Shown here: positions 13,498-63,614 of the stretch, piece by piece
How the letters are laid out: the number at the start of each line of letters is the position of its first letter
How positions within the stretch are numbered: position 1 is the stretch's first letter
Notes under the pieces: model-generated
What the model saw: the letters and a program-made list of their open reading frames with translations, nothing else
Told to the model about the DNA's origin: nothing
Database searches by the model: none
Program-made: the position numbers and the translations under genes
Source of the DNA: Vibrio vulnificus NBRC 15645 = ATCC 27562
GTDB taxonomy: Bacteria > Pseudomonadota > Gammaproteobacteria > Enterobacterales > Vibrionaceae
Length of the DNA stretch: 64,000 nucleotides
Assembly: GCF_002224265.1 (NCBI RefSeq)
Contig: NZ_CP012881.1
Span: 2,976,001-3,040,000, forward strand
Reading direction: 5' to 3'

Positions 13498-13623
13498 TCA
13501 TAACAAGGCGTTTAAGAGGGATTCATGCCGCGTGGCATTTTTAGTTTGCGGTGATTTTGGCGGTGAATGTGGCTTGCGGAAGGTTGGTTTATGCGGCATT
13601 CACCCCTTAACGCAGCGTTATGC
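13498..13623 (+). repeat. attC site, class a
   Basis: Boxes tcataac / gttatgc. Sits 14 bp upstream of the first group II intron. Confidence 0.95.
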
Positions 13624-13637
13624 TTAATCAAGTAAAA

Positions 13638-15566
13638 GTGTGCCGTGGGCACAGGATCCTGTTATCTAAGGAAGGTAAACAGGAGAATGAGCATAAGCTC
13701 ATGAAGAGATGGAGGTAGGCCCTCCAGAGTCTGCTGTCGGAAGTCGGCTCTAAACCACTTTCAAGTGGCTGTTATTAAGAGTAATGGTCAGAAGCGTTGA
13801 AGGAAAGTCAGAATAGAATTCTGGCAAGGTAGAGTGCAAGGAGATGAGTAATCCCGAACCCATGTGGACGCGTCGTTAATTAGAACCAGCATCAAAACTG
13901 AGGTCGTTTTATTATCTCAGGACGAGTACACCGGTAAATTCCGAATGCTGGGTGTGCGGTGCTCGGCGTAAAGTGGGCATGACTTTGCACTAGGCTCTTT
14001 GTGGGAACCACGGGAACCAGTCATCACGATGTAAAGGAAGAAATATAAATGACTAAATTCATGAGTATGAGAGTACCGATGCGTGATACTGGGGCGGAGC
14101 AATTCGTAGTAGTGATGAAGGGCTTGTAATGAGCGTGGAGCGAAGGGATTGCGTCAAGTCGGTTGGAACGATGACTCAACTGCCGACAGGCAGGAGGAGG
14201 TCGCACGGACAACCAAAACCTTTTGCAATATCCAAATGGGATGTAATGACTGCGTTCGAGAAGGTAAAAGCCAACAAAGGCGGAGCCGGAGTGGATGGAG
14301 TAACGATAGAGGACTTTGAAAAAGACCTTAAAAACAACCTTTACAAGATATGGAACAGAATGTCATCGGGGTCCTACTTTCCCACACCGGTCGCAGCGGT
14401 AAGTATACCGAAAAAGTCTGGTGGAGAGAGGGTATTGGGTATCCCAACGGTCAGCGACCGAGTGGCGCAAACTGTGGTAAGAGACAAGCTTGAAATCATG
14501 CTCGAGCATCACTTCCTAGATGACTCTTACGGCTATCGAGTGGGTAAATCTGCTCATGATGCGATAGAAGTCACTAGAAGACGATGTTGGCAGTATGATT
14601 GGGTACTAGAGTTTGATATCAAAGGTCTCTTTGACAATATTCGTCATGACTTGTTGATGAAAGCGGTAAAGAAACATGTTCAGCTCGCTGAAGAGAGTCA
14701 GAGCCGGGATTATCAATGGATAACACTGTACATCGAAAGGTGGTTAGTTGCTCCGTTACAGAAAGCAGATGGGACGCAAACAGAAAGAGAGTTAGGAACG
14801 CCACAAGGTGGCGTGGTAAGCCCAGTGCTTGCCAACCTATTTCTTCACTATGTTTTTGATAAATGGCTGGAGAAGAATTATCCAGACAACCCATGGTGTC
14901 GATACGCAGATGATGGACTTGTCCATGCAAGGACAAAGCCGAAAGCGGAGAAGTTGAGGGATGAGCTAGCGAAGCGCTTCAAGGAGTGCGGACTGGAGAT
15001 GCACCCAATTAAGACGAAGATTGTTTACTGCAAAGATGATATTAGACGAGGGTCAGGTAAGCATATAGAGCATAAACAATTTGATTTTCTAGGGTATACC
15101 TTCAGGGCCAGAACAAATAAGTGTAAACGTACAGGTCAACTCTATAATCGATTCCTGCCTGCGGTCAGTATGGCAGCAAAGAAAGTCATGCGAAGGCAAA
15201 TCAGAGAGCTAAGAGTTCGCCAGGAAACGCAGTACAGCTTAGAGCAATTAAGCAGATGGTTAAGTCCAATGCTGAATGGTTGGATAAACTACTACGGAAA
15301 GTTCAGGCGAAGCGAATTAGACTCGGTATTCAGACACTTCAACAAGACTTTAGTACGTTGGGCGAGAAGGAAATTCAAATCGCTAAAATGTCACAAAAGT
15401 CGAACCGTAGCGTTCTTTGATAAGCTATCGGCTCAATGTCCTAGATTGTTTCCTCACTGGAAATTTGGTTCAGCAAGAAGTTTTACTTGATGGGAGCCGT
15501 ATGAGCTGAGAGGTTCACGTACGGTTCTGCGAGAGGCTGCTGGGGTGGTTCCGGTGGCCTACTCAC
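13638..15566 (+). mobile_element. Group II intron, IIC-like, copy 1
   Basis: About 1.93 kb ribozyme plus maturase. The 5' end is GTGTG at 13638. The folded 5' domains occupy 13638-14128. Domain V is 15494-15527 (GAGCCGTATG ... GTACGGTTC), followed by a domain VI hairpin and a 3' end near CTACTCAC at 15566 (uncertain by one base). The unoccupied site appears at 37604-37640. The intron is in the direction of the cassettes and inserted 14 bp after the attC right box, whose hairpin could serve as the structure that IIC introns recognise. Confidence 0.92.
14129..15490 (+). CDS. ltrA: Group II intron reverse transcriptase/maturase, copy 1
   Basis: 453 residues; ATG 14129 follows GATGAAGGG and an in-frame stop. 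It binds the intron RNA, helps splicing and copies the intron into new DNA sites. Visible reverse transcriptase blocks: GGAGVDGVTIEDF (51-63), the GIPTVSDRVAQ region (104-114), EFDIKGLFDN (161-170), GTPQGGVVSP (223-232) and catalytic YADD (259-262). The maturase (X) domain follows, with LNGWINYYGKF near 390. There is no HNH endonuclease domain, as usual for IIC introns, which use lagging-strand primers. The frame is intact, so the intron is likely active. Confidence 0.95.
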   Translation: MSVERRDCVKSVGTMTQLPTGRRRSHGQPKPFAISKWDVMTAFEKVKANKGGAGVDGVTIEDFEKDLKNNLYKIWNRMSSGSYFPTPVAAVSIPKKSGGERVLGIPTVSDRVAQTVVRDKLEIMLEHHFLDDSYGYRVGKSAHDAIEVTRRRCWQYDWVLEFDIKGLFDNIRHDLLMKAVKKHVQLAEESQSRDYQWITLYIERWLVAPLQKADGTQTERELGTPQGGVVSPVLANLFLHYVFDKWLEKNYPDNPWCRYADDGLVHARTKPKAEKLRDELAKRFKECGLEMHPIKTKIVYCKDDIRRGSGKHIEHKQFDFLGYTFRARTNKCKRTGQLYNRFLPAVSMAAKKVMRRQIRELRVRQETQYSLEQLSRWLSPMLNGWINYYGKFRRSELDSVFRHFNKTLVRWARRKFKSLKCHKSRTVAFFDKLSAQCPRLFPHWKFGSARSFT

Positions 15567-15903
15567 CTCAGTTGGTTATGGTTTTTCTTTGTTCCCTTGG
15601 CTTTTCAGTTTGGTGTTTGTCGGCAAGCCGGTTTTTTTGAGCGCTGTTTTTCGGACACTTATTCTTTGGCGCTGAAAATTCAGAGAGTTGCCTCAATCAA
15701 TTTTCGGGTAAGCGCGAGGTTAGAGCGGTTGACTCAATCAGAAATCCATTTTGATTTTTTAAACTCCAAACAAGATTTGCCAGAATTCCGAGCCTGATTA
15801 TCAAAACTATGATTCATTTCGGTTTTCTAAGTTTTGGCTTTTGTTTCTGAATCAAAGTCGAGTTAATCTTGTTTCCAGAAAAACGTAACCTATTGAAGCT
15901 TAA

Positions 15904-16030
15904 GCATAACAAGGCGTTTAAGCGGGATTCATGCCGCGTGGCATTTTTGGTTTGCAGTGAGTTTTGGTGGTGAAAGTGGTCTGCGGAAGCTTGGTTTATG
16001 CGGCATTCACCCCTTAACGCAGCGTTATGT
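15904..16030 (+). repeat. attC site, class a
   Basis: Boxes gcataac / gttatgt. Belongs to the intron-bearing A cassette at 13624. Confidence 0.95.
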
Positions 16031-20230: not shown

Positions 20231-20356
20231 ACCTAACAAAGCATTTAAGTGGGATTCACAACGCATGGCATTTTTAGCATGTAGTAGCTATCTTGGTGAG
20301 CGTAGTTTGCATTGAGTTAGTTTGGGCGTTGTTCACCCCTTAATGCGGCGTTATGC
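20231..20356 (+). repeat. attC site, class e
   Basis: Boxes acctaac / gttatgc. Closes the convergent two-gene cassette; 14 bp upstream of intron copy 2. Confidence 0.95.
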
Positions 20357-20370
20357 TTAATCAAGTAAAA

Positions 20371-22299
20371 GTGTGCCGTGGGCACAGGATCCTGTTATCT
20401 AAGGAAGGTAAACAGGAGAATGAGCATAAGCTCATGAAGAGATGGAGGTAGGCCCTCCAGAGTCTGCTGTCGGAAGTCGGCTCTAAACCACTTTCAAGTG
20501 GCTGTTATTAAGAGTAATGGTCAGAAGCGTTGAAGGAAAGTCAGAATAGAATTCTGGCAAGGTAGAGTGCAAGGAGATGAGTAATCCCGAACCCATGTGG
20601 ACGCGTCGTTAATTAGAACCAGCATCAAAACTGAGGTCGTTTTATTATCTCAGGACGAGTACACCGGTAAATTCCGAATGCTGGGTGTGCGGTGCTCGGC
20701 GTAAAGTGGGCATGACTTTGCACTAGGCTCTTTGTGGGAACCACGGGAACCAGTCATCACGATGTAAAGGAAGAAATATAAATGACTAAATTCATGAGTA
20801 TGAGAGTACCGATGCGTGATACTGGGGCGGAGCAATTCGTAGTAGTGATGAAGGGCTTGTAATGAGCGTGGAGCGAAGGGATTGCGTCAAGTCGGTTGGA
20901 ACGATGACTCAACTGCCGACAGGCAGGAGGAGGTCGCACGGACAACCAAAACCTTTTGCAATATCCAAATGGGATGTAATGACTGCGTTCGAGAAGGTAA
21001 AAGCCAACAAAGGCGGAGCCGGAGTGGATGGAGTAACGATAGAGGACTTTGAAAAAGACCTTAAAAACAACCTTTACAAGATATGGAACAGAATGTCATC
21101 GGGGTCCTACTTTCCCACACCGGTCGCAGCGGTAAGTATACCGAAAAAGTCTGGTGGAGAGAGGGTATTGGGTATCCCAACGGTCAGCGACCGAGTGGCG
21201 CAAACTGTGGTAAGAGACAAGCTTGAAATCATGCTCGAGCATCACTTCCTAGATGACTCTTACGGCTATCGAGTGGGTAAATCTGCTCATGATGCGATAG
21301 AAGTCACTAGAAGACGATGTTGGCAGTATGATTGGGTACTAGAGTTTGATATCAAAGGTCTCTTTGACAATATTCGTCATGACTTGTTGATGAAAGCGGT
21401 AAAGAAACATGTTCAGCTCGCTGAAGAGAGTCAGAGCCGGGATTATCAATGGATAACACTGTACATCGAAAGGTGGTTAGTTGCTCCGTTACAGAAAGCA
21501 GATGGGACGCAAACAGAAAGAGAGTTAGGAACGCCACAAGGTGGCGTGGTAAGCCCAGTGCTTGCCAACCTATTTCTTCACTATGTTTTTGATAAATGGC
21601 TGGAGAAGAATTATCCAGACAACCCATGGTGTCGATACGCAGATGATGGACTTGTCCATGCAAGGACAAAGCCGAAAGCGGAGAAGTTGAGGGATGAGCT
21701 AGCGAAGCGCTTCAAGGAGTGCGGACTGGAGATGCACCCAATTAAGACGAAGATTGTTTACTGCAAAGATGATATTAGACGAGGGTCAGGTAAGCATATA
21801 GAGCATAAACAATTTGATTTTCTAGGGTATACCTTCAGGGCCAGAACAAATAAGTGTAAACGTACAGGTCAACTCTATAATCGATTCCTGCCTGCGGTCA
21901 GTATGGCAGCAAAGAAAGTCATGCGAAGGCAAATCAGAGAGCTAAGAGTTCGCCAGGAAACGCAGTACAGCTTAGAGCAATTAAGCAGATGGTTAAGTCC
22001 AATGCTGAATGGTTGGATAAACTACTACGGAAAGTTCAGGCGAAGCGAATTAGACTCGGTATTCAGACACTTCAACAAGACTTTAGTACGTTGGGCGAGA
22101 AGGAAATTCAAATCGCTAAAATGTCACAAAAGTCGAACCGTAGCGTTCTTTGATAAGCTATCGGCTCAATGCCCTAGATTGTTTCCTCACTGGAAATTTG
22201 GTTCAGCAAGAAGTTTTACTTGATGGGAGCCGTATGAGCTGAGAGGTTCACGTACGGTTCTGCGAGAGGCTGCTGGGGTGGTTCCGGTGGCCTACTCAC
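20371..22299 (+). mobile_element. Group II intron, IIC-like, copy 2
   Basis: Same length as copy 1. Domain V at 22227-22260. The only difference I noticed from copy 1 is C at 22172 instead of T, a silent change in a cysteine codon of the maturase. Confidence 0.92.
20862..22223 (+). CDS. ltrA: Group II intron reverse transcriptase/maturase, copy 2
   Basis: 453 residues, protein identical to the one at 14129, with all reverse transcriptase motifs and YADD intact. Its host cassette follows a class e attC, while copies 1 and 3 follow class a and class b sites, so the intron does not depend on one attC class. Identity among copies points to recent spread; a common active source or ongoing exchange between copies would both explain it. 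Confidence 0.95.
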   Translation: MSVERRDCVKSVGTMTQLPTGRRRSHGQPKPFAISKWDVMTAFEKVKANKGGAGVDGVTIEDFEKDLKNNLYKIWNRMSSGSYFPTPVAAVSIPKKSGGERVLGIPTVSDRVAQTVVRDKLEIMLEHHFLDDSYGYRVGKSAHDAIEVTRRRCWQYDWVLEFDIKGLFDNIRHDLLMKAVKKHVQLAEESQSRDYQWITLYIERWLVAPLQKADGTQTERELGTPQGGVVSPVLANLFLHYVFDKWLEKNYPDNPWCRYADDGLVHARTKPKAEKLRDELAKRFKECGLEMHPIKTKIVYCKDDIRRGSGKHIEHKQFDFLGYTFRARTNKCKRTGQLYNRFLPAVSMAAKKVMRRQIRELRVRQETQYSLEQLSRWLSPMLNGWINYYGKFRRSELDSVFRHFNKTLVRWARRKFKSLKCHKSRTVAFFDKLSAQCPRLFPHWKFGSARSFT

Positions 22300-22637
22300 C
22301 TCAGTTGGTTATGGTTTTTCTTTGTTCCCTTGGCTTTTCAGTTTGGTGTTTGTCGGCAAGTTGGCTTCAGTGGGCGCTGTTTTTCGGACACTTATTCTTT
22401 GGCGCTGAAAGCTCTGAGTGTTGCCTCAATCAATTTTCGGGTAAGCGCGAGGTTAGGGCGGTTGGCTCAATCAGAAATCCATTTCTAGGTTTTCAAACTT
22501 CAAACTAGATTTGCCAAAATTCCGAGCCTGATTATCAAAACTATGATTCATTTCGGTTTTCTACGTTTTGGTTTTTGTTTGTAAATCAAAATCGAGTTAA
22601 TCTTGTTTTTAGTAAAACGCAAGTTATTGAAGCTTAA

Positions 22638-22763
22638 GCATAACAAGGCGTTTAAGCGGGATTCATGCCGCGTGGCATTTTTGGTTTGCGGTGATTTTTG
22701 TGGTGAAAGTGGTCTGCATAAGGTTGGTTTATGCGGCATTCACCCCTTAACGCGGCGTTATAC
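22638..22763 (+). repeat. attC site, class a
   Basis: Boxes gcataac / gttatac. Belongs to the intron-bearing cassette at 20357. Confidence 0.95.
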
Positions 22764-28332: not shown

Positions 28333-28433
28333 TTCTAACAAGTAGTTCAAGCGGGATGCCAAACAGTGCGCTGTTTTCGCTTCGCTCAAGTTTAGCGCAC
28401 AACTGTTTGTCACCCCTTAACTAAGCGTTAGGC
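28333..28433 (+). repeat. attC site, short divergent type
   Basis: Boxes ttctaac / gttaggc, only about 101 bp. Inner arms GCGCTGTTTTCGCTTCGCTC / AAGTTTAGCGCAC differ from all other sites here; a different source lineage is likely. Confidence 0.9.
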
Positions 28434-54361: not shown

Positions 54362-54482
54362 CAAAGCGTTAAAGAGGGACTTAGCACGCGTGGCATTTTT
54401 GGTTTGCGTTGGGTTTAGTGGTTAAGGTGTGATGCGGTCACTTTTGTATTGCGTGCCTGCGCCCCTTAACGCGGCGTTATGC
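54356..54482 (+). repeat. attC site, class b
   Basis: Boxes tcataac / gttatgc. 14 bp upstream of intron copy 3. Confidence 0.95.
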
Positions 54483-54496
54483 TTAATCAAGTAAAA

Positions 54497-56425
54497 GTGT
54501 GCCGTGGGCACAGGATCCTGTTATCTAAGGAAGGTAAACAGGAGAATGAGCATAAGCTCATGAAGAGATGGAGGTAGGCCCTCCAGAGTCTGCTGTCGGA
54601 AGTCGGCTCTAAACCACTTTCAAGTGGCTGTTATTAAGAGTAATGGTCAGAAGCGTTGAAGGAAAGTCAGAATAGAATTCTGGCAAGGTAGAGTGCAAGG
54701 AGATGAGTAATCCCGAACCCATGTGGACGCGTCGTTAATTAGAACCAGCATCAAAACTGAGGTCGTTTTATTATCTCAGGACGAGTACACCGGTAAATTC
54801 CGAATGCTGGGTGTGCGGTGCTCGGCGTAAAGTGGGCATGACTTTGCACTAGGCTCTTTGTGGGAACCACGGGAACCAGTCATCACGATGTAAAGGAAGA
54901 AATATAAATGACTAAATTCATGAGTATGAGAGTACCGATGCGTGATACTGGGGCGGAGCAATTCGTAGTAGTGATGAAGGGCTTGTAATGAGCGTGGAGC
55001 GAAGGGATTGCGTCAAGTCGGTTGGAACGATGACTCAACTGCCGACAGGCAGGAGGAGGTCGCACGGACAACCAAAACCTTTTGCAATATCCAAATGGGA
55101 TGTAATGACTGCGTTCGAGAAGGTAAAAGCCAACAAAGGCGGAGCCGGAGTGGATGGAGTAACGATAGAGGACTTTGAAAAAGACCTTAAAAACAACCTT
55201 TACAAGATATGGAACAGAATGTCATCGGGGTCCTACTTTCCCACACCGGTCGCAGCGGTAAGTATACCGAAAAAGTCTGGTGGAGAGAGGGTATTGGGTA
55301 TCCCAACGGTCAGCGACCGAGTGGCGCAAACTGTGGTAAGAGACAAGCTTGAAATCATGCTCGAGCATCACTTCCTAGATGACTCTTACGGCTATCGAGT
55401 GGGTAAATCTGCTCATGATGCGATAGAAGTCACTAGAAGACGATGTTGGCAGTATGATTGGGTACTAGAGTTTGATATCAAAGGTCTCTTTGACAATATT
55501 CGTCATGACTTGTTGATGAAAGCGGTAAAGAAACATGTTCAGCTCGCTGAAGAGAGTCAGAGCCGGGATTATCAATGGATAACACTGTACATCGAAAGGT
55601 GGTTAGTTGCTCCGTTACAGAAAGCAGATGGGACGCAAACAGAAAGAGAGTTAGGAACGCCACAAGGTGGCGTGGTAAGCCCAGTGCTTGCCAACCTATT
55701 TCTTCACTATGTTTTTGATAAATGGCTGGAGAAGAATTATCCAGACAACCCATGGTGTCGATACGCAGATGATGGACTTGTCCATGCAAGGACAAAGCCG
55801 AAAGCGGAGAAGTTGAGGGATGAGCTAGCGAAGCGCTTCAAGGAGTGCGGACTGGAGATGCACCCAATTAAGACGAAGATTGTTTACTGCAAAGATGATA
55901 TTAGACGAGGGTCAGGTAAGCATATAGAGCATAAACAATTTGATTTTCTAGGGTATACCTTCAGGGCCAGAACAAATAAGTGTAAACGTACAGGTCAACT
56001 CTATAATCGATTCCTGCCTGCGGTCAGTATGGCAGCAAAGAAAGTCATGCGAAGGCAAATCAGAGAGCTAAGAGTTCGCCAGGAAACGCAGTACAGCTTA
56101 GAGCAATTAAGCAGATGGTTAAGTCCAATGCTGAATGGTTGGATAAACTACTACGGAAAGTTCAGGCGAAGCGAATTAGACTCGGTATTCAGACACTTCA
56201 ACAAGACTTTAGTACGTTGGGCGAGAAGGAAATTCAAATCGCTAAAATGTCACAAAAGTCGAACCGTAGCGTTCTTTGATAAGCTATCGGCTCAATGTCC
56301 TAGATTGTTTCCTCACTGGAAATTTGGTTCAGCAAGAAGTTTTACTTGATGGGAGCCGTATGAGCTGAGAGGTTCACGTACGGTTCTGCGAGAGGCTGCT
56401 GGGGTGGTTCCGGTGGCCTACTCAC
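54497..56425 (+). mobile_element. Group II intron, IIC-like, copy 3
   Basis: I see no difference from copy 1. Domain V at 56353-56386. Lies 32 kb from copy 2. Confidence 0.92.
54988..56349 (+). CDS. ltrA: Group II intron reverse transcriptase/maturase, copy 3
   Basis: 453 residues, identical protein to copies 1 and 2. With three identical, intact maturases on direct repeats of 1.93 kb, homologous recombination between copies could delete or invert none but delete the 6.7-kb or 34-kb segments between them. Reading frame and YADD motif are intact. Confidence 0.95.
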   Translation: MSVERRDCVKSVGTMTQLPTGRRRSHGQPKPFAISKWDVMTAFEKVKANKGGAGVDGVTIEDFEKDLKNNLYKIWNRMSSGSYFPTPVAAVSIPKKSGGERVLGIPTVSDRVAQTVVRDKLEIMLEHHFLDDSYGYRVGKSAHDAIEVTRRRCWQYDWVLEFDIKGLFDNIRHDLLMKAVKKHVQLAEESQSRDYQWITLYIERWLVAPLQKADGTQTERELGTPQGGVVSPVLANLFLHYVFDKWLEKNYPDNPWCRYADDGLVHARTKPKAEKLRDELAKRFKECGLEMHPIKTKIVYCKDDIRRGSGKHIEHKQFDFLGYTFRARTNKCKRTGQLYNRFLPAVSMAAKKVMRRQIRELRVRQETQYSLEQLSRWLSPMLNGWINYYGKFRRSELDSVFRHFNKTLVRWARRKFKSLKCHKSRTVAFFDKLSAQCPRLFPHWKFGSARSFT

Positions 56426-56763
56426 CTCAGTGATTTATGGTTTTTCTTTGCTCCCTCGGCTTTTCAGTTTTGTGTTTGTCGGCAAGTTGGCTTCAGTGGG
56501 CGCTGTTTTCTGGACACTTATTCTTTGGCGCTAGAAATTCAGAGAGTTGCCTCAATCAATTTTTGGGCCAGCGCGCGGTTAGGGCGGTTGGCTCAATCAG
56601 AAATCCATTTCTAGGTTTTCAAACTTCAAACTAGATTTGCCAAAATTCCGAGCCTGACTATCAAAACTATGATTTATTTCGGTTTTCTACGTTTTGGCTT
56701 TTGTTTGTGAATCAAAGTCGAGTTAATCTTGGTTCTGGTCAAACGTAACCCATTGAAGCTTAA

Positions 56764-56890
56764 GCATAACAAGGCGTTTAAGAGGGATTCATGCCGCGTG
56801 GCATTTTTGGTATGCGGTGAGTTTTGGTGGTGAAAGTGGTCTGCGGAAACTTGGTTTAGGCGGCACTCACCCCTTAACGCAGCGTTAGTT
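56764..56890 (+). repeat. attC site, class a
   Basis: Boxes gcataac / gttagtt. Belongs to the intron-bearing cassette at 54483. Confidence 0.95.
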
Positions 56891-58909: not shown

Positions 58910-59035
58910 ACCTAACAAACTGTTCAAGAGGGATTCACAACGCGTGGCATTTTTACTATGCGTTGGTTTTGGTGTTTAAGGTGGTATGCAGCGGCTTCGG
59001 TATTGCGTTGCTCACCCCTTAACAGGGCGTTATGC
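58910..59035 (+). repeat. attC site, class c
   Basis: Boxes acctaac / gttatgc. Closes the NTF2-like gene. Confidence 0.95.
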
Positions 59036-59051
59036 ATTAGAAGGTAACATT

Positions 59052-59543
59052 ATGATTCTGAGAATATTTAAGCAAGAACATGATTTTAGTTGTGGTGTTG
59101 CATGTGTTGCTATGTTAGCAAGCTTAAATAAAGGCTCAGCGCATGAACAATATAGTTCTTGTATTAAGTTCTTATTTCCGAAATTGGCGGAAAATCAATT
59201 GGAAAAACCGAATGTAAACCTTAGAACTAAAATTGGACAGCTTCAATCGTACCTTTCAGAGCAAGGTCTACGAACTACTCGGTTTAAACTGAACGATCAA
59301 TCGGTAGAACAGTTTGAAACCGGCGTTTCGATTGTCCTTATCCACGCCCAAAAGTTTCTTCATTGGGTATTAGTCTTTAAAGTTTCAAATGACATTTATG
59401 TTGTGGACCCAGAGGAAGAAACGGAATACAAGTTTAGCGATTATTTCTCGTATGATGGCTATGATATCTGTTTAAACAAAATGCATATTAAGTTGCCGGA
59501 TCTATCCATTAGTAATGTTGTGTTAGGTGGAAAAAATGCATAA
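59052..59543 (+). CDS. C39-like papain-fold peptidase
   Basis: 163 residues; ATG 59052 with AGAAGGT upstream. Marks of a C39/C70-like cysteine peptidase: QEHDFSCGVACVAMLASL with candidate nucleophile C14, FLHWVLVFKV with H104 and IYVVDPEEE with D119. The usual transporter and membrane domains of C39 bacteriocin exporters are absent and there is no signal peptide, so it acts in the cytosol. It might process a double-glycine peptide or be a toxin. The stop is in the attC. Confidence 0.8.
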   Translation: MILRIFKQEHDFSCGVACVAMLASLNKGSAHEQYSSCIKFLFPKLAENQLEKPNVNLRTKIGQLQSYLSEQGLRTTRFKLNDQSVEQFETGVSIVLIHAQKFLHWVLVFKVSNDIYVVDPEEETEYKFSDYFSYDGYDICLNKMHIKLPDLSISNVVLGGKNA

Positions 59544-60256: not shown

Positions 60257-60378
60257 CAAGCAATTTAAGAGGGATTCTCAACGCTTGGCACTTTTGCTTT
60301 TACTTGAAATATAGTGTTTACGGTACAATGCGTTAGGTTGGGTGGTGGCGTTGTTCACCCCTTAATTGGGCGTTAGGT
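60251..60378 (+). repeat. attC site, class d (gcttttacttgaa variant)
   Basis: Boxes acataac / gttaggt. Its TAA ends the gene at 59690. Confidence 0.95.
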
Positions 60379-60723
60379 TCACGAAGAAAAAAGCATCATT
60401 TTTGGGGAAAAGATTTGGGGATTTCTCTGGCTATTCGTTTACGGCTTTCAGCAAGCTGGCTTGATCTATCCAAATCATCACGTTTCTTTACCTGTGTCTC
60501 ATGCCAAAATTCGTGGGTTGCTTCATTGGAAAATGGAGTAGGTTGGTTGAAAGTTTCACTGACTCAAAATCGTTTTAAGTTAACCGATTAAACTGACTTA
60601 ATCATTTGTTTTTAGGTTGCTCGCATTTGTCTGCCCAATTGAGTGAATTACTTGGAAATGGTTCAGCGCAATGCGTTAATCTAGCGGGATTCTTTGCCAA
60701 GTTGGTGCAGGTTAAACAGTAAA
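60379..60723 (+). other. Gene-free singleton cassette
   Basis: 345 bp with short resemblances to families A/B (CAGCAAGCTGGCTTGAT, AATTCGTGGGTTGCTTCATT, AGTTAACCGATTAAACTG) that suggest a very diverged relative. No gene seen. Confidence 0.55.
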
Positions 60724-60849
60724 ACCTAACAAGAAATTCAAGCCTGACTACCAACGCGTGGCTGAATCTGCTCTAAATGGGTTTAGTGATTACGGTGCAT
60801 TGCTTTTAATGACTTTGTGCGTTGGCAGCAGCTTAATTCGGCGTTAGCA
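60724..60849 (+). repeat. attC site, divergent
   Basis: Boxes acctaac / gttagca. Arms aagaaattcaagcctgact / agcagcttaattcggcgtta; stands apart from classes a-e. Confidence 0.9.
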
Positions 60850-60884
60850 TGCAAATAGCGTCAATCAGGTTTTGAAGGATTATA

Positions 60885-62504
60885 ATGAAACTTGTAACGA
60901 AAAGAGTAGAGAATTTAGGAACTCCTTCATCTGAAAATGGAGTTTTCTCAATGCTTAGTGAGCTCAGAAGAGAGCTTCTACTAGAGATTTCGGAAGGAGA
61001 AAAAAGGATAGGAAGTTCAGAAGAAATAAAAAGTTGGATTTTAGAGCACTATCAAGCCAACCCCTTAGTTGGTGATATGTATAATGCAATTTTAATGATA
61101 AAAAAAGATTTAGTTTATTCTGAAGGCGATTTACCACAGCTTGCGGAATGTAAGTCTAAGATATCTCAATTGGAAACATTACCTCTTCCTGAGTTTTGCT
61201 TTATAACTTCTCGTATTCAAGATGTAGAAAAAGGAGTGTTAATTCAAAGAGAAGAGCTTAAAGGCGCTGGTTTAGTCTATTCTATAACAATTTTCGATAG
61301 AGAGTACTTAACGAAGAAAGCAGTACGCCTAGAAATTCGAGTGTGTAAAAAAGAACCAGAGCCATTTGTTTCTCTTTTTACCATTAATGGCTGGATTCAT
61401 ATATCTAAGGAAAATATACAATCAAATGAGTATGCCGTATTTGCTCTCCGATGTTTAATAGCCTATCACCGTTACGAGTATCCAGTATTAACAAAAGATT
61501 TAATAATTGTTGATGAACAAGATAAGCTTACTGATAATGACTATTTATTAGATTTAATAGTTAAGGCTCATAAAAATGAAATAAAATGCTATAAAGCAGA
61601 AGTTCCATTAAATATTATTAAGCCACGTGATATTGAATACGCATTATCTATTCCGAAAGAAAGAATTCAGTCTTACATTAACAAAGTGTGTGATTTTGGC
61701 TTTTCTTTCTCTGAGTTGCTTATCTATGAAGATGGTAATGTTTTCATAACTGATGACGATTATCCTGTATACCTTGCTTATGCAGCAATGGATATTAGTA
61801 TGGTTCCAGCGGTAATATTAGGTGAATTTAAGAACACTGATGTGAAAGTTTTGTCTGAGGGAGGAGGAGAGTTGATGCCTCCGATAGGTGTCGAAGAAAT
61901 TGAAGACTCAGGTATTCCTATTAAAACTAAAGAACAAGCTCTTAGAGAGAAAATATCTAGTTTATGCCCCAAAATTTCTGATTCTACGAAACTGGAAAAT
62001 AGATTTGTTCATTTCTGTAGACTAATTGGTAGTAGATCGACAAAAGAAAAAGAGCTACATGAATTTTTAAATAAAAATCCACAAATTTTAGATAGTCATA
62101 TGGCCTCTATGTTCAGCGAAGTTAGAATAGGTCGCTATAGATCAGACTTAGTTATACGTTATGAGCAAGTCGACAAAAAAGTAGTATTGGTTGAGCTGGA
62201 GCGTCATAGTGATAAAATATTTACGAAGTCCAACCGTATAAGAAAAAAAGTTACTCATGCATCTCAACAAGTGGAAGACTGGATTAACGAAATTAGATTA
62301 GGGACAAATAATGCACCGAAATGGTTAACGAATCAGTATAATCCTGAAGGTTTTGTCGTTATTGGTCGCTCAAAAGACCTCTCAGAAGACCAAAAACAAA
62401 TTTTGTTTTCATTAAATGTGAATCGTAAGGTAAAGATAATAACCTATGATGATTTGTTGGAGCGAATGAAACGGCTTATGGGAATGATTGGTGGCTTAAA
62501 CTAG
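60885..62504 (+). CDS. sduA: Shedu-type (DUF4263) anti-phage protein
   Basis: 539 residues, the largest cassette gene; ATG 60885 with GAAGGATT upstream. The C-terminal ~170 residues match the SduA nuclease domain: ENRFVHFCRLIGS, then KELHEFLNKNPQIL (E390-E393 region), SEVRIGRYRSDLVI with D421, VLVELER with E437 and E439, and THASQQVEDWINEIR. Together they form the PD-(D/E)xK-like core of this family. The N-terminal ~350 residues have helical and strand-rich parts (for example FVSLFTINGWIHIS, VEEIEDSGIPIK) and are probably the sensing part. Single-gene Shedu systems protect against phages. The gene has very low GC, in line with transfer. Cassette ends are TTAGCA/TGCTAAC. Confidence 0.88.
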   Translation: MKLVTKRVENLGTPSSENGVFSMLSELRRELLLEISEGEKRIGSSEEIKSWILEHYQANPLVGDMYNAILMIKKDLVYSEGDLPQLAECKSKISQLETLPLPEFCFITSRIQDVEKGVLIQREELKGAGLVYSITIFDREYLTKKAVRLEIRVCKKEPEPFVSLFTINGWIHISKENIQSNEYAVFALRCLIAYHRYEYPVLTKDLIIVDEQDKLTDNDYLLDLIVKAHKNEIKCYKAEVPLNIIKPRDIEYALSIPKERIQSYINKVCDFGFSFSELLIYEDGNVFITDDDYPVYLAYAAMDISMVPAVILGEFKNTDVKVLSEGGGELMPPIGVEEIEDSGIPIKTKEQALREKISSLCPKISDSTKLENRFVHFCRLIGSRSTKEKELHEFLNKNPQILDSHMASMFSEVRIGRYRSDLVIRYEQVDKKVVLVELERHSDKIFTKSNRIRKKVTHASQQVEDWINEIRLGTNNAPKWLTNQYNPEGFVVIGRSKDLSEDQKQILFSLNVNRKVKIITYDDLLERMKRLMGMIGGLN

Positions 62505-62556: not shown

Positions 62557-62681
62557 TGCTAACAAATTGCTTAAGAGTGACAGCTAACCTTTGGCATTTT
62601 TGGTTTGGGTGAGTTTAGTGATTACGGTGGCTTTGCTTGAACTTAATGGTTGGTTAGCTGCACCTTAGCAAAGCGTTATGT
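62557..62681 (+). repeat. attC site, divergent
   Basis: Boxes tgctaac / gttatgt. Arms aaattgcttaagagtgacagct / agctgcaccttagcaaagcgtta; unlike other sites, as might be expected for a recent arrival. Confidence 0.93.
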
Positions 62682-63014
62682 TTAGTCACGTAAAATCAGT
62701 TGGTTGCATCTTTTCTTTGCTTTCTCAGCTTTCTAATTTTGGTCTTGTCGGCAAGTTAACTTCAGTGTTCGCTGTTTTCTGGACTCCAATTCGTGGGCGC
62801 TAAAAATTCTGAGAGTCGCCTCATTTAAGTTCAGTGCGTTTTTGAGTCGAATGACGCAAAGTTTGAGCTCCAATTTTCGGTTTTCCACGCTAAAACTCAA
62901 TATCAGTAAATTCAAATTTATTAGTTAATTCAGTTTTTTAGCGTCTAGTTTTGGTTTTCAAAGATAAGTTGAGTTAAGCTTTGGTATCGCAAAACTTAAC
63001 CCTTTGAGCCTTAA
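62682..63014 (+). repeat. Family B gene-free cassette, shortened
   Basis: 333 bp; missing GATCTTAGTTTC before AAAGTTTGAGC compared with 57951. No gene seen. Confidence 0.9.
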
Positions 63015-63141
63015 ACATAACAAGGCGTTTAAGTGGGATTCATGCCGCGTGGCATTTTTGGTATGCGGTGAGTTTTGGTGGTGAAAGTGGTCTGCGGGAA
63101 GTTGGTTTAGGCGGCATTCACCCCTTAACGCAGCGTTATGT
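63015..63141 (+). repeat. attC site, class a
   Basis: Boxes acataac / gttatgt. Belongs to the B cassette at 62682. Confidence 0.95.
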
Positions 63142-63488
63142 TTAGTCACGTAAAATCAGTTGGTTGCATCTTTTCTTTGCTTTCTCAGCTTTCTAATTTT
63201 GGTCTTGTCGGCAAGTTACGTTTAGTGGTCGCTGTTTTCTGGACTCCAATTCGTGGGCGCTAAAAATTCAGAGAGTTGCCTCATTAAAGTTCAGTGCGTT
63301 TGTGAGTCGAATGAAGCGATGTTAGTTTCAACGTTTGAGCACCAGCTTTCGGTTTCTCACGCTAAAATCTCAATGTCAGTACAATCAAATTTATGAGTTA
63401 ATTCAGCTTTTTAGCTTCTAACTTTGGTTTTCAAAGATAAGTCGAGTTAAGCTCTTGGTATCGTAAAACTTAACCGTTCGAGTCTTAA
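63142..63488 (+). repeat. Family B gene-free cassette
   Basis: 347 bp, close to 23286 and 1711. No gene seen. Confidence 0.9.
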
Positions 63489-63614
63489 ACATAACAAGGC
63501 GTTTAAGCGGGATTCATGCCGCGTGGCATTTTTGGTTTGCGGTGATTTTTGTGGTGAAAGTGGTGTGCGGAAACTTGGTTTAGGCGGCACTCACCCCTTA
63601 ACGCGGCGTTATGC
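63489..63614 (+). repeat. attC site, class a
   Basis: Boxes acataac / gttatgc. Belongs to the B cassette at 63142. Confidence 0.95.

Follow-up and report, generated by a model that had tools for sequence, protein, structure and literature searches.

The DNA analysed here is a 64,000-nucleotide stretch of Vibrio vulnificus (the window, C1:2976001-3040000 of a source genome of two contigs and 5.0 Mb). It carries, as a cassette of a large integron, an intact open reading frame (ORF) whose 539-amino-acid (aa) product belongs to the Shedu family. In all likelihood this is a single-protein, putative anti-phage nuclease borne on a mobile cassette; the family membership, the intact frame, the cassette borders and a foreign-looking attC site are observed. 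The protein type is already covered by a PADLOC model, and the protein is a novel member of an established defence-gene class. Two of its features deserve a bench test: an ExE motif in place of ExK in the active site, and a middle domain of predicted ParB/sulfiredoxin-like fold.

A reading made from the sequence only had recognised a DUF4263/SduA pattern in the C-terminal domain and proposed a profile search and a structure prediction as checks. SduA_C/DUF4263 (PF14082) matches residues 386-525 with 81.2 bits, above the curated cut-off of 27, and the PADLOC SduA model PDLC00387 matches with 810 bits, residues 16-535 aligning with model positions 28-543 of 546. Nineteen further PADLOC SduA models match, all more weakly, and no NCBIfam model matches the protein. 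The predicted structure of the C-terminal domain has the Shedu nuclease fold. The source genome has no second match of this kind and no other SduA_C match. It is the one large ORF of its cassette, besides a 64-aa antisense ORF lying inside it, and 365 residues precede the nuclease domain, i.e. the anatomy of a single gene with an N-terminal region ahead of the nuclease. No tested feature separates the protein from PDLC00387, a Shedu subfamily of near full-length likeness, whose model itself comes without a described mechanism; matches to B. cereus Shedu (8ti8, 8ti9) and E. coli SduA (8ps4, 8ps5) are confined to the nuclease domain. A housekeeping repair nuclease of NucS/EndoMS type in place of a defence nuclease appears extremely improbable.

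At E 0.001 the search for relatives gave 58 proteins, and in 46 the match extends over half of the query or more. The window protein was aligned with 42 of the 58 (43 rows), leaving out its own cluster P0001, the shorter P0038, P0039 and P0043, and twelve matches to the C-terminal part (P0047-P0058), which were aligned separately. SduA_C is detected in all 43 sequences, and seven residues are invariant: D421, E437, E439, H458, Q462, D465 and W466. D421 and E437 had been numbered correctly in the sequence-only reading. E439, which it did not name, stands where B. cereus Shedu has a lysine, the aligned stretch being L-I-E-I-K (EIK against ELE here). In the predicted nuclease fold the acidic positions of the PD-(D/E)XK motif are thus retained and the position of the catalytic lysine is a glutamate.

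The lysine position was also read in 37 rows from 36 of 42 fetched loci (the other six gave no match): 21 have E, 11 have K and 5 are unresolved, counts in which E is inflated because 17 loci (L002-L018) entered through the window protein's own family and the search profile was built from ExE proteins, one locus moreover being fetched twice among the E rows. The 19 loci from the PF14082 search (L101-L119) gave 3 E, 6 K and 10 unresolved or without match. ExE is also present in more distant, shorter relatives.

The glutamate in place of this lysine in 43 of 43 sequences, set beside the EIK of B. cereus Shedu and the reported requirement of V. cholerae VcSduA for its lysine (mutation K557A abolished defence, PMC12137116), could mean that the protein keeps the Shedu fold and no longer cuts DNA, with the ExE branch acting non-catalytically, as a sensor or regulator that binds DNA or a phage protein. 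We consider this improbable: the invariance of D421, E437 and E439, together with the same ExE in distant relatives, suggests retained metal binding. BamHI, an enzyme with a D...ExE centre (a literature search on this point gave nothing relevant), offers a precedent for an active ExE. The invariant ExE lets the dispensability of the catalytic lysine in Shedu be tested directly.

The N-terminal half had been described as unlike any known sensor. This stands for its first part, which has no convincing match and whose profile comparison with the AcrVA2 family was equivocal; but the half as a whole is within reach of PDLC00387, and its second part, the middle domain, has by structure prediction the fold shared by the ParB/sulfiredoxin superfamily. 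At the level of profiles the likeness is non-significant: 3.9% probability over 68 columns against 1.3% for a reversed-ParB control. The ParB profile comprised 26 sequences longer than 280 aa from 31 loci, five shorter pieces being dropped, and its ORFs were chosen by a GERR/GHRR pattern, which may have let in a stray one. The profile phrog_15396 ("ParB-like partition nuclease") matches one of the 43 aligned members (E 0.0037). A GmrSD_N (DUF262) source of the middle domain was rejected, with a probability of 1.6% for a profile of 24 sequences out of 30 loci containing the DGxQR pattern. GmrSD is nevertheless a parallel in its way of working, a ParB/sulfiredoxin-type domain joined to a nuclease, though a nuclease of another type (HNH) (PMC12839542). 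ParB/sulfiredoxin domains are reported to recur in defence systems, namely GmrSD, DpdB and DndB (PMC12839542), and a nucleotide- or DNA-responsive switch is therefore plausible for the window protein.

In the mechanism that we propose, the C-terminal domain would cut DNA, probably when assembled into a multimer of Shedu type, and D421, E437 and E439 would bind its metal ions in a BamHI-like centre. Its activity would be restrained by the two domains ahead of it, one helical/beta and N-terminal, the other ParB/sulfiredoxin-like, as long as no infection signal has been bound; the likeliest such signal is a nucleic-acid feature or a nucleotide. The middle domain would give a handle on what activates a Shedu nuclease. 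In the ParB/sulfiredoxin superfamily an arginine motif of GERR or GCHR type is nucleotide-binding. The middle domain lacks it: a DDY that is invariant in the 43 sequences stands, by hand alignment with ParB, in its place, and this altered motif speaks against ordinary nucleotide binding. A bolder proposal is that a Shedu branch with a BamHI-like D...ExE centre has as its switch a degenerate ParB/sulfiredoxin domain, in which the invariant DDY has replaced the arginine motif; this branch would constitute a mechanistically undescribed type of nucleotide- or DNA-gated nuclease, moved between species by integron cassettes as a one-gene immune module. We put this forward tentatively and hold it rather unlikely in its entirety.

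The cassette nature of the gene, also claimed in the sequence-only reading, is borne out by its borders. An integron integrase (TIGR02249, 480.6 bits for a cut-off of 265) lies on the minus strand at C1:2922216-2923163. The attC pattern scan over 180 kb gave 228 candidate sites, of which two were discarded as false on visual inspection; the remaining 226 extend from window coordinate -52256 to 104532, about 157 kb. The Shedu ORF lies between two of these sites; its cassette ends at site 175 of 226, and the start of the ORF is about 114 kb from the integrase. It is, as claimed, the longest cassette gene (rank 1 among 225 cassettes by ATG ORF), in a cassette of 1,832 bp that is the 11th longest. 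The ORF is also very AT-rich, as had been noted (33.8% GC), and its cassette has the lowest GC content of the 225 (34.3%, median 41.2%).

Both bracketing attC sites had been called unlike the rest. They are indeed outliers, with a best identity to other array sites of 69.1% for the downstream site (rank 4 from the lowest of 226, median 96.7%) and 65.3% for the upstream one (rank 2). They are not alone, since the sites at 28334 (56.1%, shortened by the pattern, rank 1) and 98683 (67.7%, rank 3) are equally odd. Moreover, the cassette's own attC is the downstream site; the upstream one belongs to a separate, preceding cassette. Realigned jointly, the Shedu attC shows 67.5% best identity within the array against 85.1-87.6% in loci fetched from seven other genomes; by BLAST its best array match spans 74 of 120 bases and the foreign matches 119-121 alignment columns. 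The stretch 62540-62690 matches 190 of 227 genomes of the genus, source genome counted (E 0.001, at most three candidates scored per genome), a tally that carries little meaning because attC sequence is widely shared within the genus; its best matches in other genomes are 87-89% identical over 119-131 bases. Four other genomes of the genus contain the preceding cassette in full length, 77-86% identical (two candidates scored per genome). Since the Shedu attC is closer to foreign sites than to those of its own array, and the preceding cassette is found whole elsewhere, both cassettes look captured from other arrays. An origin of the Shedu cassette in another integron of the genus, i.e. of another of its members, is thus supported; that the capture was recent, as first suggested, finds no support.

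At its present place the cassette is probably poorly expressed; expression would rise once it is brought close to the array promoter by the integrase, or once transcription from a neighbouring promoter runs into it. The gene could even be a non-working defence gene in the present host, a silent passenger deep in the array without its own promoter. Its distance from the integrase, a promoter scan that stayed below chance level and the patchy distribution of the gene agree with this. On the other hand the frame is intact with GAAGGA ahead of it, and the 99% identical cluster P0001 counts 60 member sequences. In V. parahaemolyticus, integron defence genes are reported to be induced at high cell density, one of them protecting from its native place (PMC12409362). 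We regard a silent passenger as possible but doubtful, and such a cassette may still be a defence gene. An anti-phage nuclease on a mobile cassette remains our preferred interpretation.

One of 227 genomes of the genus, the source genome itself, has the full-length gene, and four more have C-terminal matches. The 79% identical relative P0002 is labelled Vibrio nigripulchritudo. Scans with a single sequence detected no relative in genome or viral contigs; with an alignment as query, 17 loci were detected in genome contigs. Phage records gave no match to the protein, plasmid records one, to the C-terminal part only. The attC right-end pattern, built on the attC type of the source array and so liable to miss other types, gave three isolated matches in the 17 loci (L004, L010, L015), none seen bordering the gene. 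The neighbours (10 proteins at six of eight full-length relatives' loci, scanned with Pfam and PADLOC) include the Gabija pair GajB and GajA adjoining the relative in a Burkholderiales metagenome-assembled genome (L003:5788-11783), a Dsr1-like SIR2 protein directly downstream in Pseudomonas (L004) and the PADLOC candidate PDC-S51 directly upstream in Rhodoferax (L005). The remaining six are a transposase, a kinase, an AMP-ligase, a SIS protein, an FAD enzyme and a Schlafen/AlbA-type protein.

Integrons as carriers of phage defence, which the sequence-only reading evoked, are established in the literature (PMC12409362). With the window, the defence repertoire of large chromosomal integrons gains a Shedu gene that is intact and full-length, and the 539 residues of its product run counter to the reported trend towards small integron defence genes (PMC12409362). 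VcSduA is likewise a single protein with a DUF4263 nuclease behind a different N-terminal part; it differs by its GHKL ATPase N-terminus, its catalytic K557 and its location on the VSP-II island rather than in an integron (PMC12137116). Integron cassettes of another genus, Xanthomonas, also include Shedu by DefenseFinder (PMC12444791); in the accessible portions of the Shedu literature this was the sole report of Shedu within integron cassettes, and neither an ExE motif nor a ParB-like Shedu was described.

Features of the Shedu cassette and its surroundings (window coordinates)
Feature	Position	Strand	Basis
Preceding cassette, without large ORF	about 60376..60846	+	whole-length matches in other genomes of the genus
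attC of preceding cassette, left border of Shedu cassette	60726..60846	+	pattern scan
Shine-Dalgarno-like GAAGGA	60874..60879	+	5 bases ahead of ATG; direct reading
Shedu (SduA) nuclease ORF	60885..62504	+	ATG start, 539 aa, no internal stop
Middle domain, residues 230-339, ParB/sulfiredoxin-like predicted fold	61572..61901	+	structure prediction
Invariant D291-D292-Y293	61755..61763	+	at position of ParB GERR motif by hand alignment (putative placement)
PD-(D/E)XK-type Shedu nuclease domain, residues 366-537	61980..62495	+	SduA_C match and predicted fold
D421, predicted metal ligand	62145..62147	+	alignment; comparison with B. cereus Shedu
E437-L438-E439, ExE replacing ExK	62193..62201	+	alignment; comparison with B. 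cereus Shedu
attC of Shedu cassette	62559..62678	+	unlike nearly all other array sites

Elsewhere in the array, 75 of the 225 cassettes have no ATG ORF of 60 aa. A 23-base motif of cassettes without a large ORF (e.g. 62690-63138 and 63150-63611) was counted 71 times on the + strand and not once on the - strand (180 kb, at most 6 edits), and many genomes of the genus contain a related stretch of about 80 bases. An ORF of 453-459 aa is carried by each of five cassettes about 2.4 kb long (13621-16028, 20354-22761, 54480-56888, -45352 to -42942 and 84401-86801, the last two outside the window); that at 54480-56888 has matches to group II intron RNA and an ORF that by eye resembles a reverse transcriptase. 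When ten other window ORFs were submitted to PADLOC nine had no match; the ORF at 35817-36527 matches Csa3 weakly (18 bits, E 0.0005). The cassette ORF at 58986-59543 (185 aa, with QEHDFSCGVACVAMLA near its start) resembles a C39-type peptidase by this motif. Among the C-terminal relatives, P0047 (353 aa) has PF04607, which we take to be RelA_SpoT, fused to SduA_C, possibly an alarmone-linked Shedu.
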